This document shows, piece by piece, positions 29,460-35,210 of a stretch of DNA of 64,000 nucleotides. Origin of the DNA: Acidobacteriota bacterium (GTDB lineage Bacteria; Acidobacteriota; Holophagae; Holophagales; Holophagaceae); NCBI GenBank assembly GCA_016213735.1, contig JACQZU010000017.1, positions 1 to 64,000 on the forward strand, written 5' to 3'. Numbering within the stretch: position 1 is the first letter of the stretch; each line of letters starts with the position of its first letter. The notes beneath the pieces were generated by a model. That model did not search any database. It worked only from the letters and a program-made list of their open reading frames with translations, and had not been told where the DNA came from. Both the position numbers and the translations under genes were made by a program.

Positions 29460-30359
29460 TCAGGCGAACACCTCCTCCTGGGCCGATTTCAGGATCGCCA
29501 GCACGCCGGGGTGGACCAGGCGCCGCTCGGTGGAGACCGCGTAGATCCGTTCGCTGAGGCCGTCGGCGCTTCCCACCCGGCGGACGCCGTAGGTGCGGGC
29601 CAGGTCCGCCGCCATGGGGGCCGGGGCGAGGAAGAAGCCTTCGCCCTCGGCGCCGAAGGTCTTGAGCAGGGCGCTGTCGTCGAAATCCCCCGCCACCACG
29701 GGGCGCAGGCCCCGGGCCTCCAGCCACCGCTCCAGGGCCGCGCGGGCGCGGCTGCCTTCCGAGGGCAGCAGCATCGGGGCCCCGTCCAGGCAGGCGGGGA
29801 AGGCCCGGCGGTGGCGTCGGAGCAGGGACGGGGCGGCGAAGAAGTCCTGGCCGCATTCCCCCAGCAGGTGGTTGAAGGCCCGGGGGCCGCCGCGCCCGGG
29901 ATGCGGGGCGTCGCTCAGCACCAGGTCCACCTCGTGGGCGAACAGGGCGTCGAGCAGGGCCGGGAGGCCCCGCTCACGGCAGCTCAGCCGGAGGGGCTCC
30001 GGCAGTTCCAGGGCCGGCCTCAGCAGGCGGTGCACCATCAGCTTGGGCAGGGCGTCGGAGATTCCCACCACCAGGCGGAGGGGCCGCCCGGTGGGTCGGC
30101 CCTTGAGCTCGCTCTGGAATTCCCGCCCCAGGGTGAAGATTTCGTCCGCGTAGCGGAAGGCCAGCCGGCCCGCGTCGGTCAACTCCAGGCGCCGGCCCGC
30201 CCGCCGGAGCAGCTGCTCACCCAGGCTTTCCTCCAGCTGCCGGAGCTGGGTGCTGAGCGCCGGCTGGGAAATCCGGAGGGTCTCCGCCGCGGCCGTCACG
30301 GTCCCTTCCCGGACCACGGTCCAGAAGTAGAGAAGATGGTGATAGTTGAGCCATTCCAT
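29460..30359 (-). CDS. nhaR: LysR-family regulator, NhaR-like
   Basis: 299 residues. The N-terminal helix-turn-helix (1-62, MEWLNYHHLLYFWTVVREGT ... LRISQPALSTQLRQLEE) and the following RYADEIFTLGREF segment are closest to NhaR, the activator of Na+/H+ antiporter and stress genes. A periplasmic-binding-like effector domain covers about 90-295. The ATG at 30357-30359 is preferred over a TTG two codons earlier. No nhaA is adjacent; the divergent HPF/HtpX/TerC cluster is the natural first target to consider. Confidence 0.82.
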   Translation of the reverse strand: MEWLNYHHLLYFWTVVREGTVTAAAETLRISQPALSTQLRQLEESLGEQLLRRAGRRLELTDAGRLAFRYADEIFTLGREFQSELKGRPTGRPLRLVVGISDALPKLMVHRLLRPALELPEPLRLSCRERGLPALLDALFAHEVDLVLSDAPHPGRGGPRAFNHLLGECGQDFFAAPSLLRRHRRAFPACLDGAPMLLPSEGSRARAALERWLEARGLRPVVAGDFDDSALLKTFGAEGEGFFLAPAPMAADLARTYGVRRVGSADGLSERIYAVSTERRLVHPGVLAILKSAQEEVFA

Positions 30360-30473
30360 GCCCAAATGATATATCCAAAAAACAAATGAATTCTTAAGAA
30401 ATTATAAATTGGATGGAATTGAAACACGATCGCATCCTTTCCCTGCGCCCCGGAGGCGCCAGGGAGGCGAAGG
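30360..30473. promoter_or_regulatory. AT-rich divergent control region with perfect palindrome
   Basis: The 114-base gap between the NhaR-like gene and the HPF-like gene is markedly AT-rich over 30365-30425. It contains the perfect palindrome TTCTTAAGAA (30391-30400) inside a longer imperfect one, the kind of dyad LysR proteins bind, plus several TATA-like stretches usable as -10 boxes. Near 30440-30465 a GC hairpin precedes AGGGAGG, the binding site of the HPF-like gene. Confidence 0.45.
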
Positions 30474-30776
30474 ATGAGGATCGAGATCAGGAGCGTCGGA
30501 TTCACCACCACGGAGGCGCTGCGGGCCCATGTCCTGCGCCGCCTGGGGAGCGCCCTGGCCCGGCGGGCGGACAGGATCCGCAGGGTCATCGTCCGGATGA
30601 GCGACGAGAACGGACCCAGGGGCGGCCTCGACAAGAGCTGCAGGATCGAAGCCGTCCTGGCCGGCCATCCGACGAGGGTCAGCGAAGGCCTGGCCGCCGA
30701 CCTCTACACCGCGATCGACGCCGCCGCCCGCCGGCTCGGCCGACTCCTGGACCGCGGGCAGCGCCCTTACCTCTGA
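30474..30776 (+). CDS. HPF/RaiA-like ribosome-associated protein (short form)
   Basis: 100 residues with the beta-alpha-beta-beta-beta-alpha pattern of the sigma-54 modulation/hibernation factor fold: MRIEIRSVGFTTTEALRAHVLRRL, VIVRMSDENG, CRIEAVLAG and a final helix (DLYTAIDAAARRLGRLL). Such factors bind the ribosomal A/P site and stabilise idle ribosomes. Length matches short HPF without the dimerisation domain. It is eleven bases before htpX, likely cotranscribed. Confidence 0.8.
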   Translation: MRIEIRSVGFTTTEALRAHVLRRLGSALARRADRIRRVIVRMSDENGPRGGLDKSCRIEAVLAGHPTRVSEGLAADLYTAIDAAARRLGRLLDRGQRPYL

Positions 30777-30786
30777 GGAGACCGCC

Positions 30787-31647
30787 ATGAACCGCTTCAA
30801 GACCTTCCTTCTGCTCGGGCTCGCCACCTCCCTGGTGGTGTTCCTTGGCTCCCGCATGGGCACCGGCTGGCTGGTCGGCTCCGTGGCCGTGGCCTTCGCC
30901 ATGAACCTTGGCGCCTACTTCTGGAGCCACAAGCTGGTCCTGCGCATGCAGGGCGCCCAGGAACTCCCCGAAAACGAGGCGCCGTGGCTTCACCGCGACG
31001 TGGCCGAACTGGCCGCCCTGGCCGGCATCCCCAAGCCGAAGGTCTACCTGATCCCCGACGACGCGCCGAACGCCTTTGCCACGGGCCGGGACCCCAAGCA
31101 CGGAGTGGTGGCCTTCACGGAGGGCATCCTTCGCACCATGCCGCGCCGGGAGCTGCGTGGGGTCATCGCCCACGAGCTGAGCCACATCCTCCACCGGGAC
31201 ATCCTGGTGGCCACCGTGGCCGCAGGCCTGGCCGGCGCGGTCAGCCTCCTGGCCAATGTGGTCCAGTGGGGAGCCCTGCTGGGTGGAAGCCGCGATGAGG
31301 AGGGGGGCGGGAGCCCTCTGGGCGGGCTGCTGTTCGCCCTGCTCGCCCCGGTGGGCGCCTCGCTGATCCAGTTCGCGATCTCCCGTTCCAGGGAGTTCAT
31401 GGCCGATGCCAGGGCCGCCGAACTCACCGGCGATCCCGAGGGGTTGGCCCAGGCCCTCCTGCGGCTCGGCCGCGGCCAGGACCCGGAACTGCAAGGTCCC
31501 ACCGCCCAGCCCGCCACCGCCAGCCTGATGATCGCCAGCCCCTTCAGCGGCGCCGGCCTCCTCAGCTGGTTCAGCACCCACCCGCCCATCGAGGCCCGGG
31601 TGGCCCGCCTCCTCTCAATGACCCCCCACCGCCGCCGCGCGGCCTGA
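30787..31647 (+). CDS. htpX: protease HtpX
   Basis: Heat-shock zinc metalloprotease (M48B) of membrane-protein quality control, 286 residues. Two N-terminal membrane segments (about 7-22, 27-47), the zinc motif HELSH at 129-133, two more hydrophobic segments (about 140-162, 177-198) and the third ligand Glu203 in SREFMADARA. The STHPP segment near the C-terminus is also typical. Preceded by GAGGAG. Part of the HPF-HtpX-TerC-ExoD cluster. Confidence 0.95.
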   Translation: MNRFKTFLLLGLATSLVVFLGSRMGTGWLVGSVAVAFAMNLGAYFWSHKLVLRMQGAQELPENEAPWLHRDVAELAALAGIPKPKVYLIPDDAPNAFATGRDPKHGVVAFTEGILRTMPRRELRGVIAHELSHILHRDILVATVAAGLAGAVSLLANVVQWGALLGGSRDEEGGGSPLGGLLFALLAPVGASLIQFAISRSREFMADARAAELTGDPEGLAQALLRLGRGQDPELQGPTAQPATASLMIASPFSGAGLLSWFSTHPPIEARVARLLSMTPHRRRAA

Positions 31648-31661
31648 CCCGGGAGCCCTGA

Positions 31662-32597
31662 ATGGAATCGATCGGATCTGTCTGGATGTGGGGCGGCTTC
31701 GTGGCCTTCGTCCTGGGGATGCTTGCGCTGGACCTCGGGGTCTTCCACCGCCAGGCCCACAAGGTCACCGTCAAGGAGGCGGCGGTCTGGAGCCTGGTCT
31801 GGGTGGCGCTGGCGCTGGCCTTCAACGGCCTGATCTGGAAGGGCTTCGGGGCCGACCGGGGGATGGAATTCCTGACCGGCTACCTGATCGAGAAGGCCCT
31901 GAGCGTGGACAACATCTTCGTGTTCGTCCTGATCTTCGGAGCTTTTTCGGTGCCGGAGGCCTACCAGCACCGGGTGCTCTTCTGGGGCATCCTGGGTGCC
32001 CTGGTCATGCGCGCGGTGTTCGTCGGGCTGGGGGCGGCCCTCCTCGCCAGCTTCCACTGGGTGATCTACCTTTTCGGAGCCTTCCTTCTGATCACCGGGA
32101 TCAAGATGCTGGTGCTCCGCGACCAGGGATTCGACCCCAGGAGCAACCCGGTCTTCCGTCTGTTCAAGCGGCTGGTCCCCTCCGTGGACACCTACCACGG
32201 CGCGGCCTTCACTGTCGTCCAGGACGGCCGTCGGCTCGCCACCCCGCTGCTGCTGGTGCTGGTGGCGGTGGAGCTGACCGACCTGGTCTTCGCGGTGGAC
32301 AGTGTCCCGGCCATCTTCGCGGTCACCCGGGACCCCTTCATCGTGTTCACCTCCAACATCTTCGCCATCCTGGGCCTGCGATCCCTCTACTTCCTGCTCG
32401 CGGGGGTCGTGCAGCAGTTCCGCCACCTGAAGGTGGGCCTGAGCCTGGTGCTCGTGTTCGTCGCCCTGAAAATGCTCGCCGTCGACTTCTACAAGGTCCC
32501 CGTGGCCTGGAGCCTGGGAGTGATCGCCGTCCTGATCGGCGGCTCCATGCTGGCCTCCCGCCTCCTGCCGGGCACCCCCGTCCGGGAGCTCCGATGA
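31662..32597 (+). CDS. TerC/Alx-family membrane protein
   Basis: 311 residues with about nine membrane segments. The acidic intramembrane motifs of the family are present: EKALSVDNIFVFVLIF (about 78-93) and ELTDLVFAVDSVPAIFAVTRDPFIVF (about 206-231). Alx/TerC proteins act in metal (Mn) efflux, tellurite resistance and metalation of exported proteins. The stop overlaps the next start by four bases (ATGA). Confidence 0.92.
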   Translation: MESIGSVWMWGGFVAFVLGMLALDLGVFHRQAHKVTVKEAAVWSLVWVALALAFNGLIWKGFGADRGMEFLTGYLIEKALSVDNIFVFVLIFGAFSVPEAYQHRVLFWGILGALVMRAVFVGLGAALLASFHWVIYLFGAFLLITGIKMLVLRDQGFDPRSNPVFRLFKRLVPSVDTYHGAAFTVVQDGRRLATPLLLVLVAVELTDLVFAVDSVPAIFAVTRDPFIVFTSNIFAILGLRSLYFLLAGVVQQFRHLKVGLSLVLVFVALKMLAVDFYKVPVAWSLGVIAVLIGGSMLASRLLPGTPVRELR

Positions 32598-33121
32598 ACG
32601 CCGCCACCTCGCCCGTTTCCCGCGACGCCTATGGGGCCCTGCTGGTGATGATTGCCGCGCCGGCCCTGGTCCCCGGCCTCGGTGCCCTGGCCGCCCCCTT
32701 CGCGGGCCTTGCCGGCCTCGCCCTCGGCGCCCAGCTGGCGATCGGTCGCCGCATCCCCTGGGTCCCCTCCCGGGTCCGCGCCTGGGTCACCACCGCCCCC
32801 ATGGGCCCGAGGATGTCTCTCTGGATCCAGAAACGTCTGCAGCCGTTCCTGCGGCTGCCCTCCCCCGGCTTTCCCCGGGTGCTTGCGGGGCTGACCGTGG
32901 CCTGGAGCAGCCTGCTCCTGGTTCTGCCGCTGGCCTTCGTTCCCTTCAGCAACATGGCCCCGGCGCTGGCCCTGGGCCTGGTGGGCCTCGGCCTGGCCGC
33001 CCGCAAGAGCCTGTTCGGCTGGCTCGGGGCCGCCCTTTCGGGCGGGTACACCGCCCTGCTGATCCTGGTCGGCGAAGCGGTCCTGCTCGCCGGCAAGGCG
33101 CTCCTGGAAAACCTTTCCTGA
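32594..33121 (+). CDS. exopolysaccharide synthesis protein ExoD family
   Basis: 175 residues with several hydrophobic segments (about 13-45, 98-125, 128-165) and the GRRIPWVPSRVRAWVT element plus MGPRMSLWIQKRLQPFLR, which are typical of ExoD-family membrane proteins. ExoD was named from rhizobial exopolysaccharide mutants, but its biochemical role is unknown. The ATG overlaps the TerC stop. Confidence 0.82.
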   Translation: MNAATSPVSRDAYGALLVMIAAPALVPGLGALAAPFAGLAGLALGAQLAIGRRIPWVPSRVRAWVTTAPMGPRMSLWIQKRLQPFLRLPSPGFPRVLAGLTVAWSSLLLVLPLAFVPFSNMAPALALGLVGLGLAARKSLFGWLGAALSGGYTALLILVGEAVLLAGKALLENLS

Positions 33122-33144
33122 ACCCCGTCCCTCAAGGAGGATCC

Positions 33145-33450
33145 ATGCCCGTCAAACCCACCACCCAGGAAGACGCGTTCTTCGCCCAGCAGGAGGCCGA
33201 ACGCCGTGCAGCCCTCGCCCGCGCCCAGGCTGACCGGGCCCGCGCCCGGGAAAAGGAATCGCGCCGCCAGCAGCACTGGATGCGCTGCCCCAAGTGCGGG
33301 GACCTTCTGACCGAGATCAGCTACCGGGACCAGCGGGTGGATCGCTGCGACAGTTGCGGCGGGGTCTGGTTGGACGCCGGGGAGATGGAGGCCCTCGCCC
33401 TGAAGGAGGGCGGCTTCCTGTGGGGCCTGCGCAAGGTCTTCCAAGGTTGA
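33145..33450 (+). CDS. TFIIB-type zinc-ribbon protein
   Basis: 101 residues. A charged, coiled-coil-like helix (about 9-43) is followed by a zinc ribbon with CPKC (Cys48, Cys51) and CDSC (Cys68, Cys71) and the GGVWLDAGEMEAL signature of the zf-TFIIB family. Preceded by AAGGAGG. Function unknown; follows exoD by 23 bases and probably ends the operon. Confidence 0.85.
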   Translation: MPVKPTTQEDAFFAQQEAERRAALARAQADRARAREKESRRQQHWMRCPKCGDLLTEISYRDQRVDRCDSCGGVWLDAGEMEALALKEGGFLWGLRKVFQG

Positions 33451-33460
33451 GGGCGTCAGG

Positions 33461-33557
33461 CCCCGCCCTCCACCTCTCGAACACCCGACGGTTCTCGAGG
33501 GCGAGGATCCCCCCCGGTTTGCTTCCGGGGCGGCTCCATCCCTCCCGGAGGGCGGGG
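33461..33557. repeat. 11-bp inverted repeat downstream of the zinc-ribbon gene
   Basis: CCCCGCCCTCC (33461-33471) is the exact reverse complement of 33547-33557. The 75 bases between hold further partial pairings (for example around CCCCCCGG/TTCCGGGG). It begins ten bases after the zinc-ribbon stop and could fold into a large terminator structure closing the stress operon; there is no T-tract. Confidence 0.4.
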
Positions 33558-33589
33558 TGCTGCGCGGGGACGGGAGTCCCGGCCCGGCC

Positions 33590-33618
33590 TTGACAGCCGG
33601 GACCCGCGGCCGAAACTG
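33590..33618 (+). promoter_or_regulatory. possible promoter of the Cys/His-repeat gene
   Basis: A perfect TTGACA (33590-33595) is followed 17 bases later by AAACTG (33613-33618), a poor -10. The start would fall about 20-25 bases before the ATG at 33646, with AAGGA as binding site in between. The perfect -35 and spacing make it plausible; the weak -10 suggests an activator or another sigma factor. Confidence 0.4.
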
Positions 33619-33645
33619 GAACGAACAATCCCAAAAAGGATCTCC

Positions 33646-33828
33646 ATGCGACGAGCCCTCGCCATCGCCCTCCTGGCCTGCGTCCCCTTCGCCTTCGGGG
33701 CCAAACCCTGCCAGTGGTGCGCGGACCACCACAAATCCTGCGGGGCCTGCGCCCAGACCCACAAGAACTGCAGCACCTGCCACAACCACCACAACAGCTG
33801 CAAGGACGGCTGCTACCCCAAGAAGTAG
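33646..33828 (+). CDS. exported Cys/His-rich decapeptide-repeat protein
   Basis: 60 residues: a signal peptide (1-19, ending FAFGA) and a 41-residue mature part with 8 Cys and 6 His. The mature part is a tandem repeat with a period of exactly ten: Cys22/32/42/52, Cys25/35/45 and His29/39/49 recur, that is CxxCxx(H/T)H(K/N)(S/N) three times plus a final CxxxC (Cys52, Cys56). The third unit contains a CxxCH (42-46), formally a haem-c attachment motif. No family recognised. Metal binding or a periplasmic redox/metal chaperone role is plausible. RBS AAGGA six bases from the ATG. Confidence 0.8.
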   Translation: MRRALAIALLACVPFAFGAKPCQWCADHHKSCGACAQTHKNCSTCHNHHNSCKDGCYPKK

Positions 33829-33861
33829 GCCGCCCGGGGGACCGGACGCCAGGGGTGCCCC

Positions 33862-35103
33862 CTACCGGGGCGTCGCGTCGAGCTTCTTCTTCACGTCGAG
33901 GTATTCCTGGTACACCTCCCGCATCTCGCGGGAGGTGGCCGCATCGTGGCCGCCGCTGGCGTCCAGCTGACGCTTCAGCTCGCGGTGGCGCTCCCGCAGT
34001 TCGTTCATGCGGGCCTCCAGGGCCGCGCGGCCGGAGGGGGCGGGTTTGGGGGCGGACTTCGGAGCCGCGTTGTTGTCGAAAACACCCTCGGGCGGAGGGT
34101 GCAGTTTCCGTCCCGCGGGGTCCGCGGGTTTCCGGCCCTTGAGGGCGCCCCGCAGCGCCTCCCGCTGGGCGGGGGTGGAACGGCCTTCGGTCCAGGCCTT
34201 GAGGGCCGATTCAAGGGCCGGGTTCCCGGCCACCTGTTTCTGGAGTTTTCGGAAGAGCTTGAGGCGCTTGACCTGGTCCTCCGTGGCACGGCCCGCGATC
34301 AGTGCCTCGATGTCTCCCGCCAGGCCCGGGTATTCGGCGGCGATGCCCCGCCACTTGGCGATGGACGCTGCCAGGGCCTGGGCCCGGTGCTCCTCCACGG
34401 CCTTCCGCAGGTCCTTCTCGCCGATCTCGCCCCTCAGGTAGGCCAGCACGGCGGGGTGGCGGATCCGGGCACCGGCGTACTCGGCCATCTTCTCGAGGTT
34501 CTTCACCTGCTGGGCCATCTTCTCGAAGGCGGCCTCCCCCCCCAGGCCCTTCCAGGCCTCCTCTCCCAGGGCCGCGCCCCCCACCGTCCCCACCGGGGTG
34601 CCGGTGAGACTGCCCAGGAAAGCCCCGGCCTTGGAACAAAGTTGCTTGCCCAGTTCCTGGGGGATCACGATGAGGGCCCCGCTGGTGTCGCCCTCCGCGA
34701 TGTGGCCGGCCACCTTGGCCCCCACGTCGAAGATGGAGATGGCCTTTCCCAGCTTCTCCAGCTTGTCCGAGAGGGCCTTGCAGTTGTCCTTCAAGGCCTG
34801 GACCTTGGCGCTCTTGCCGCCGCCGTCCACCATGCCCCGGAGCTGCCCCCGGGTGAGGGGCGTGCCGTCCGGCCCCCGCCCCTCCGAGAGGTTCTTGAAG
34901 TGTTCCCCCAGCAGGTCCAGGGCCTTCCCCGTGCCCTCGTGGCTGGCGACGGTTCCCGTGGTCTCGACGGCCGCCTCGCCCCGGGCCTTGAGGTCGTCCC
35001 ACATCCGCTGGTCCTGGGGGGTCCAGGCCTGGGCCCCCAGGGGCAGGGCGGCTCCCGCCACCAGGGCCGCCGCAGGGAGGGAGGAAGGGAAGAGGCCGGG
35101 CAT
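33862..35103 (-). CDS. exported helical protein of unknown function
   Basis: 413 residues from the start MPGLFPSSLPAAALVAGAALPLGAQA, which reads as a signal peptide; in-frame codons extend 30 residues further upstream without a signal or clear binding site. The mature protein is mostly alpha-helical and charged: a segment (about 60-150) with KVQALKDNCKALSDKLEKLGKAISIFDVGAKVAGHIAEGD, a Gly/Ala region, then long helices rich in Lys/Glu/Arg; a Pro/Ala linker (about 340-365) and a C-terminal coiled coil (LEARMNELRERHRELKRQLD). No family recognised. Divergent from the FHA protein gene. Confidence 0.7.
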   Translation of the reverse strand: MPGLFPSSLPAAALVAGAALPLGAQAWTPQDQRMWDDLKARGEAAVETTGTVASHEGTGKALDLLGEHFKNLSEGRGPDGTPLTRGQLRGMVDGGGKSAKVQALKDNCKALSDKLEKLGKAISIFDVGAKVAGHIAEGDTSGALIVIPQELGKQLCSKAGAFLGSLTGTPVGTVGGAALGEEAWKGLGGEAAFEKMAQQVKNLEKMAEYAGARIRHPAVLAYLRGEIGEKDLRKAVEEHRAQALAASIAKWRGIAAEYPGLAGDIEALIAGRATEDQVKRLKLFRKLQKQVAGNPALESALKAWTEGRSTPAQREALRGALKGRKPADPAGRKLHPPPEGVFDNNAAPKSAPKPAPSGRAALEARMNELRERHRELKRQLDASGGHDAATSREMREVYQEYLDVKKKLDATPR

Positions 35104-35210
35104 GGGGAGTTCGTCGGAGGAGCCCATGATGGCGCGGCCCGGGCCGGAGGAGCCACCCAAAAGGGACGCACAGATCGTGAGACCCCGGCACAATGGCGGC
35201 GAGGCCGGAC

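Follow-up and report, generated by a model that had tools for sequence, protein, structure and literature searches.

The window, the whole 64,000-nucleotide stretch of the Acidobacteriota contig that was analysed, carries a short open reading frame downstream of a gene cluster that runs in the same direction. The features of this region are as follows.

30474-30776, plus strand: HPF/S30AE gene (Pfam)
30787-31647, plus strand: HtpX-like M48 protease gene (Pfam)
31662-32597, plus strand: TerC gene (Pfam)
32600-33121, plus strand: ExoD gene (Pfam)
33145-33450, plus strand: Zn_ribbon_TFIIB gene (Pfam), the last gene of the cluster 30474..33450, upstream of the mini-protein gene
33460..33558, plus strand: GC-rich intergenic inverted repeat with 12-bp arms GCCCCGCCCTCC and GGAGGGCGGGGT and two inner hairpins
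33636..33640, plus strand: Shine-Dalgarno sequence AAGGA of the mini-protein gene, with a 5-nt spacer to the ATG, by direct sequence reading
33646-33828, plus strand: mini-protein ORF, complete from ATG to TAG, 60 amino acids
33646..33699, plus strand: predicted Sec-type signal peptide MRRALAIALLACVPFAFG, from sequence anatomy and a hydropathy filter, probably cleaved after AFG

The mini-protein ORF is genuine and coding. Coordinates and translation were read exactly from the sequence (MRRALAIALLACVPFAFGAKPCQWCADHHKSCGACAQTHKNCSTCHNHHNSCKDGCYPKK, which divides into MRRALAIALLACVPFAFG and AKPCQWCADHHKSCGACAQTHKNCSTCHNHHNSCKDGCYPKK), and inspection of in-frame starts found no alternative ATG, GTG or TTG available upstream in this frame. 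GC content at codon positions 1, 2 and 3 was 0.53, 0.54 and 0.93, and the third-position value of 93% is that of the adjoining genes. The codon log-likelihood was +13.8 bits in the mini-protein frame, the sole positive frame, with the other five ranging from -5.6 to -88; synonymous choice alone contributed +43.7 bits. Two longer overlapping ORFs, at 33557-33970 (plus strand, +1 frame) and 32629-33792 (minus strand), had negative codon scores and were set aside as composition artefacts of 69% GC DNA. The exported mini-protein ORF described in the initial annotation was thus borne out in its coordinates, ribosome binding site, codon bias and signal-peptide-like N-terminus, with the export itself best worded as exported-looking.

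A LysR gene lies divergent from the HPF-HtpX-TerC genes (29460-32597 of the window). A second genus of the family shares this conserved LysR and HPF-HtpX-TerC block (G004, locus L208), LysR and TerC are kept in a further genome (G009, locus L207), and LysR-HPF-Zn-ribbon occurs in loci L205 and L206, where the Zn-ribbon gene directly follows HPF. No small exported Cys-rich ORF was found at the counterpart loci L205-L208, and from this comparison the mini-protein gene seems to have been added where the conserved block ends. The 195-bp gap between the Zn-ribbon gene and the mini-protein gene holds the strong inverted repeat (arms at 33460-33471 and 33547-33558; fold z -1.78). Rfam gave no match of note for it, and no further copy of the intergenic DNA with the repeat was seen in the genome or in 12 relatives; it is a putative terminator or leader structure. 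The earlier placement of the gene at the end of a TerC/HtpX stress cluster is correct as to position, but across this gap the link to the cluster is only positional. On the other side, at 33862-35193 (minus strand), a gene for a 443-amino-acid exported-looking protein without a Pfam family is convergent with the mini-protein gene.

The N-terminus of the mini-protein, MRRALAIALLACVPFAFG, has a basic n-region followed by a hydrophobic h-region, as judged by sequence anatomy and the hydropathy filter, and from it we infer Sec export with loss of the first 18 residues. The mature part would comprise about 41-42 residues, of which Cys makes up about 20%, and would be basic, with a net charge of about +4 without His. 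A short lipobox-like motif, LLAC, lies at residues 9-12 within the signal peptide and contains a ninth Cys (C12); because the hydrophobic stretch ahead of it is very short, a lipoprotein appears less likely. By the same filter, neither the rest of the window nor about 50 related loci held a further exported small Cys-rich ORF.

Most of the mature part is made up of four ten-residue units.

33703..33732, plus strand: unit 1, KPCQWCADHH, which fits CxxCxxHH fully
33733..33762, plus strand: unit 2, KSCGACAQTH, with TH in place of HH
33763..33792, plus strand: unit 3, KNCSTCHNHH, which fits CxxCxxHH fully and holds the only CxxCH (CSTCH, residues 42-46)
33793..33822, plus strand: unit 4, NSCKDGCYPK, degenerate, with CxxxC and without His

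The initial annotation had counted eight Cys and six His after the signal peptide, which is correct: the Cys are residues 22, 25, 32, 35, 42, 45, 52 and 56, and the His are residues 28, 29, 39, 46, 48 and 49. It had also given the period as exactly ten over 41 residues, which is true of seven Cys out of eight, those whose residue number ends in 2 or 5, and fails for the fourth pair, C52-KDG-C56, a CxxxC instead of a CxxC in which C56 is one position off. His recurs at every tenth position (29, 39, 49), with additional His at 28, 46 and 48. Likewise, the description as CxxCxxHH-type units applies in full to units 1 and 3, but not to unit 2, with its TH, or to unit 4, which has no His. Comparison of the units with one another (nucleotide identity 15-19 of 30) shows conserved Cys and a conserved last His amid mostly divergent residues, as expected if selection acts on the ligands.

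This array is far above chance. When the mature part was shuffled at constant composition, five lag-10 Cys-Cys matches arose with a frequency of 2e-4, or 0.004 when any lag from 3 to 15 was allowed, and the combined Cys/His lag-10 statistic was reached with a frequency of 8e-5. At the DNA level, a 2.5-unit C/H pattern matched the window twice, both times in the mini-protein gene, and gave no match in 100 dinucleotide shuffles or in 8 Mb of composition-matched simulated DNA. The stronger regularity is a finer one, a C-C-H-C-C-H-C-C-H-C-C stripe with spacings of 3, 4, 3, 3, 4, 3, 3, 4, 3 and 4. In a Fourier test the strongest component fell at 106-108 degrees per residue (3.3-3.4 residues; p < 5e-5 for Cys plus His) and not at the ten-residue fundamental. 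Power at the alpha-helical 100 degrees was not significant (p = 0.11), so on a straight alpha-helix the stripe would follow a winding course. Single-sequence AlphaFold models with and without the signal peptide, made without an alignment, had low confidence (pLDDT 57 and 62) and tentatively place a short helix over each unit.

The CSTCH of unit 3 is, as previously claimed, a formal CxxCH, and it raises the possibility that the mini-protein is a mono-haem c-type cytochrome or haem carrier of minimal size. Genes for multi-CxxCH proteins exist in this genome (locus L247), so that c-type maturation is presumably present, and a predicted signal peptide with one CxxCH is what the mini-protein has in common with small c-type cytochromes. 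It differs from them in its surplus of Cys and His on the lattice: the haem motif occurs in only one of four units, leaving six other Cys and five other His unexplained. We therefore regard the haem reading as very improbable, and the earlier suggestion that haem attachment at several units could make it a minimal carrier is at odds with the single CxxCH.

Searches for relatives were uniformly negative. A protein search of 60 relatives and 93 class genomes, in which the host genus is represented by one genome, found no relative of the mini-protein (best foreign E 0.018), and the frames at the best-scoring foreign loci, when re-read, held no comparable exported Cys-rich peptide. One candidate from a search with the mature peptide alone (locus L004, E<=10) was rejected; it sits amid dehydrogenase and citrate-synthase-like genes. 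Class-wide, the exact three-unit pattern identified only the mini-protein gene, the other matches being non-peptide chance hits at about the rate of the reversed-pattern control. A scan of 396 genomes of the phylum with the 2.5-unit pattern found no relative, and none came from seeded tblastn across 84,980 species, from viral contigs (seeded search), from plasmids or from phages, the last giving one weak partial match (E 0.7). The most similar-looking pattern match in viral contigs (L273) proved to be antisense to a 570-amino-acid ORF. No Pfam or NCBIfam family matched even at E<=10, consistent with the original remark that the pattern resembles no metallothionein or zinc finger; PHROGs gave no match, and the sole PDB match, a cytosolic 5'-nucleotidase, arose by chance. 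In the literature we found no record of the repeat motif or of a periplasmic metallothionein. The initial annotation had named a lack of homologues with the repeat in any relative as one of two refuting outcomes, and on that half its case fails, since none was found in any relative searched. By these comparisons the mini-protein is a lineage-specific orphan.

The absence of a homologue in any relative, the shortness of the ORF and its location in intergenic DNA of convergent orientation bordering a conserved block are all compatible with an ORF that arose by chance or a young gene that has no selected role. However, a ribosome binding site, signal peptide, codon bias and repeat lattice coincide here, and simulated DNA of equal composition never yields the pattern. 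Among the matches listed in the genome-contig pattern scan, those in frame were mostly tandem-repeat DNA in the wrong frame or lacked a start and signal; such matches elsewhere, mostly tandem-repeat frame artefacts or antisense ORFs, do not share this combination. Since the units are internally repeated, with Cys and His kept and other residues diverged, the missing homologues point to a lineage orphan rather than to lack of function, and we consider an ORF without function improbable.

The state of the thiols bears on what the array could do. Profile searches of the host genome (97% complete) with the DsbB/VKOR models PF07884 and PF02600 gave no match, whereas positive controls matched. Across the host and 12 relatives DsbB was found in 0 of 13 genomes, and VKOR was found in 1 of 7 genomes; the class of the host may be without the usual envelope disulfide oxidases. 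Oxidation by the usual pathways is thus not expected, and reduced thiols are favoured over disulfides or a redox buffer. Envelope oxidants other than DsbB and VKOR exist.

The main remaining rival is a secreted mini-protein stapled by four disulfides, a basic peptide acting outside the cell as, for example, an antimicrobial, a signal or a thiol-disulfide buffer. The mature part has an even Cys count, which, like the export signal, the small size and the basic charge, would suit such a peptide. Besides the undetected DsbB and VKOR, the tandem periodicity with His at fixed places argues against it, as it is not typical of defensin-like peptides, and no immunity, export or processing genes were identified beside the gene. 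On balance we judge the disulfide-stapled form unlikely.

A further alternative is a bufferin-type RiPP precursor, a Sec-exported Cys-rich peptide modified by a host MNIO enzyme for copper chelation. MNIO precursors have Sec signal peptides, unusual among RiPPs, and a Cys content of 1 to 18, and in some cases their genes lie apart from the MNIO gene (PMC12452194). The mini-protein resembles these precursors and the oxazolins in its predicted export, shortness, Cys richness and presumed extracytoplasmic metal chelation, and the same genome holds one such locus, with one MNIO enzyme (PF05114, E 2.5e-82). At L246:3087-4321 (contig C6:81586-82820) the MNIO gene is preceded by a 118-amino-acid exported EGxCGK precursor, and by its sequence features this is a Buf_EGKCG/oxazolin-type copper-RiPP locus. 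Since the enzyme has its own adjoining precursor, with a signal peptide and repeated EGxCGK (L246:3965-4321), the mini-protein is not its obvious substrate. The mini-protein has the predicted Sec signal peptide but neither EGKCG nor a DUF2282 match; its gene is on contig C10, not adjacent to the genome's only PF05114 match on C6, and a scan of neighbouring genes identified neither MNIO nor DUF2063. Moreover, other genera with MNIO (G003, G004) are without the mini-protein. A bufferin-type precursor is accordingly a doubtful proposition.

Comparison with the remaining metal-binding families gave partial likenesses. The bacterial metallothioneins (SmtA/BmtA, MymT; Metallothio_Pro) are alike in small size, about 20% Cys and Cys/His as presumed ligands. 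They bind several Zn, Cd or Cu ions through Cys clusters, are cytosolic and are not known to have a ten-residue lattice, whereas the mini-protein carries a predicted export signal and matches no Pfam or NCBIfam profile, which places it outside Metallothio_Pro by both profile and predicted location. The copper storage protein Csp1 shares the concept of an exported Cys array at 3-4 residue spacing; Csp proteins are about 120-residue four-helix bundles, compared with 60 amino acids (42 mature) and no Pfam match here. Judged by sequence, the mini-protein passes the full membership test of no known family.

We therefore consider the mini-protein best read as an exported metal-thiolate/imidazole buffer acting outside the cytoplasm in the manner of a metallothionein and belonging to no known family, a reading to which we give a little less than an even chance. 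The Cys/His array together with the export signal suggests metal binding outside the cytoplasm. The peptide would bind thiophilic metal ions (Zn, Cu(I) or similar) there, leading to buffering or sequestration, with its Cys kept reduced, as the undetected DsbB and VKOR would imply. The candidate ligands are the four CxxC/CxxxC pairs and the His at every tenth position; eight thiolates would be enough for two tetrathiolate sites between neighbouring units, or alternatively a Cu(I)-thiolate cluster could form in which His residues serve as auxiliary ligands. The 3-4-3 spacing would align the 11 main ligands along one winding edge of the chain.

In favour of the metal-buffer reading are the array above chance, the ligand periodicity, the signal peptide, the ribosome binding site and the undetected DsbB and VKOR. 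The TerC proteins of Bacillus supply metal to exported proteins (PMC10550928), and by analogy the TerC neighbour may lend weak, positional support. Counting against it are the lack of any homologue found, and hence of an evolutionary test of which residues matter, and the low-confidence models; in addition, no metal-resistance gene was identified beside the gene and no metal-responsive promoter was found for it. Of the functions proposed in the initial annotation, a periplasmic metal-binding peptide appears the best reading, whereas a redox buffer is disfavoured by the undetected DsbB and VKOR. It is conceivable, though we think it unlikely, that the mini-protein represents a new class of exported metal-binding peptide of independent origin, whose continuous Cys/His stripe with 3-4-3 spacing (period 10/3 residues) forms a short periodic metal-thiolate ladder in an envelope without the usual disulfide oxidases.

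The mini-protein is a curious finding of moderate weight, and from its sequence it is probably metal-binding. If it binds nothing, it would be a lineage-specific orphan of little wider weight. If it does bind metal, it would be a metallothionein-like protein outside the cytoplasm that arose recently in one bacterial lineage, its very simple repeat rule would make it easy to test, and it would illustrate the use of free envelope thiols by bacteria without DsbB and VKOR.
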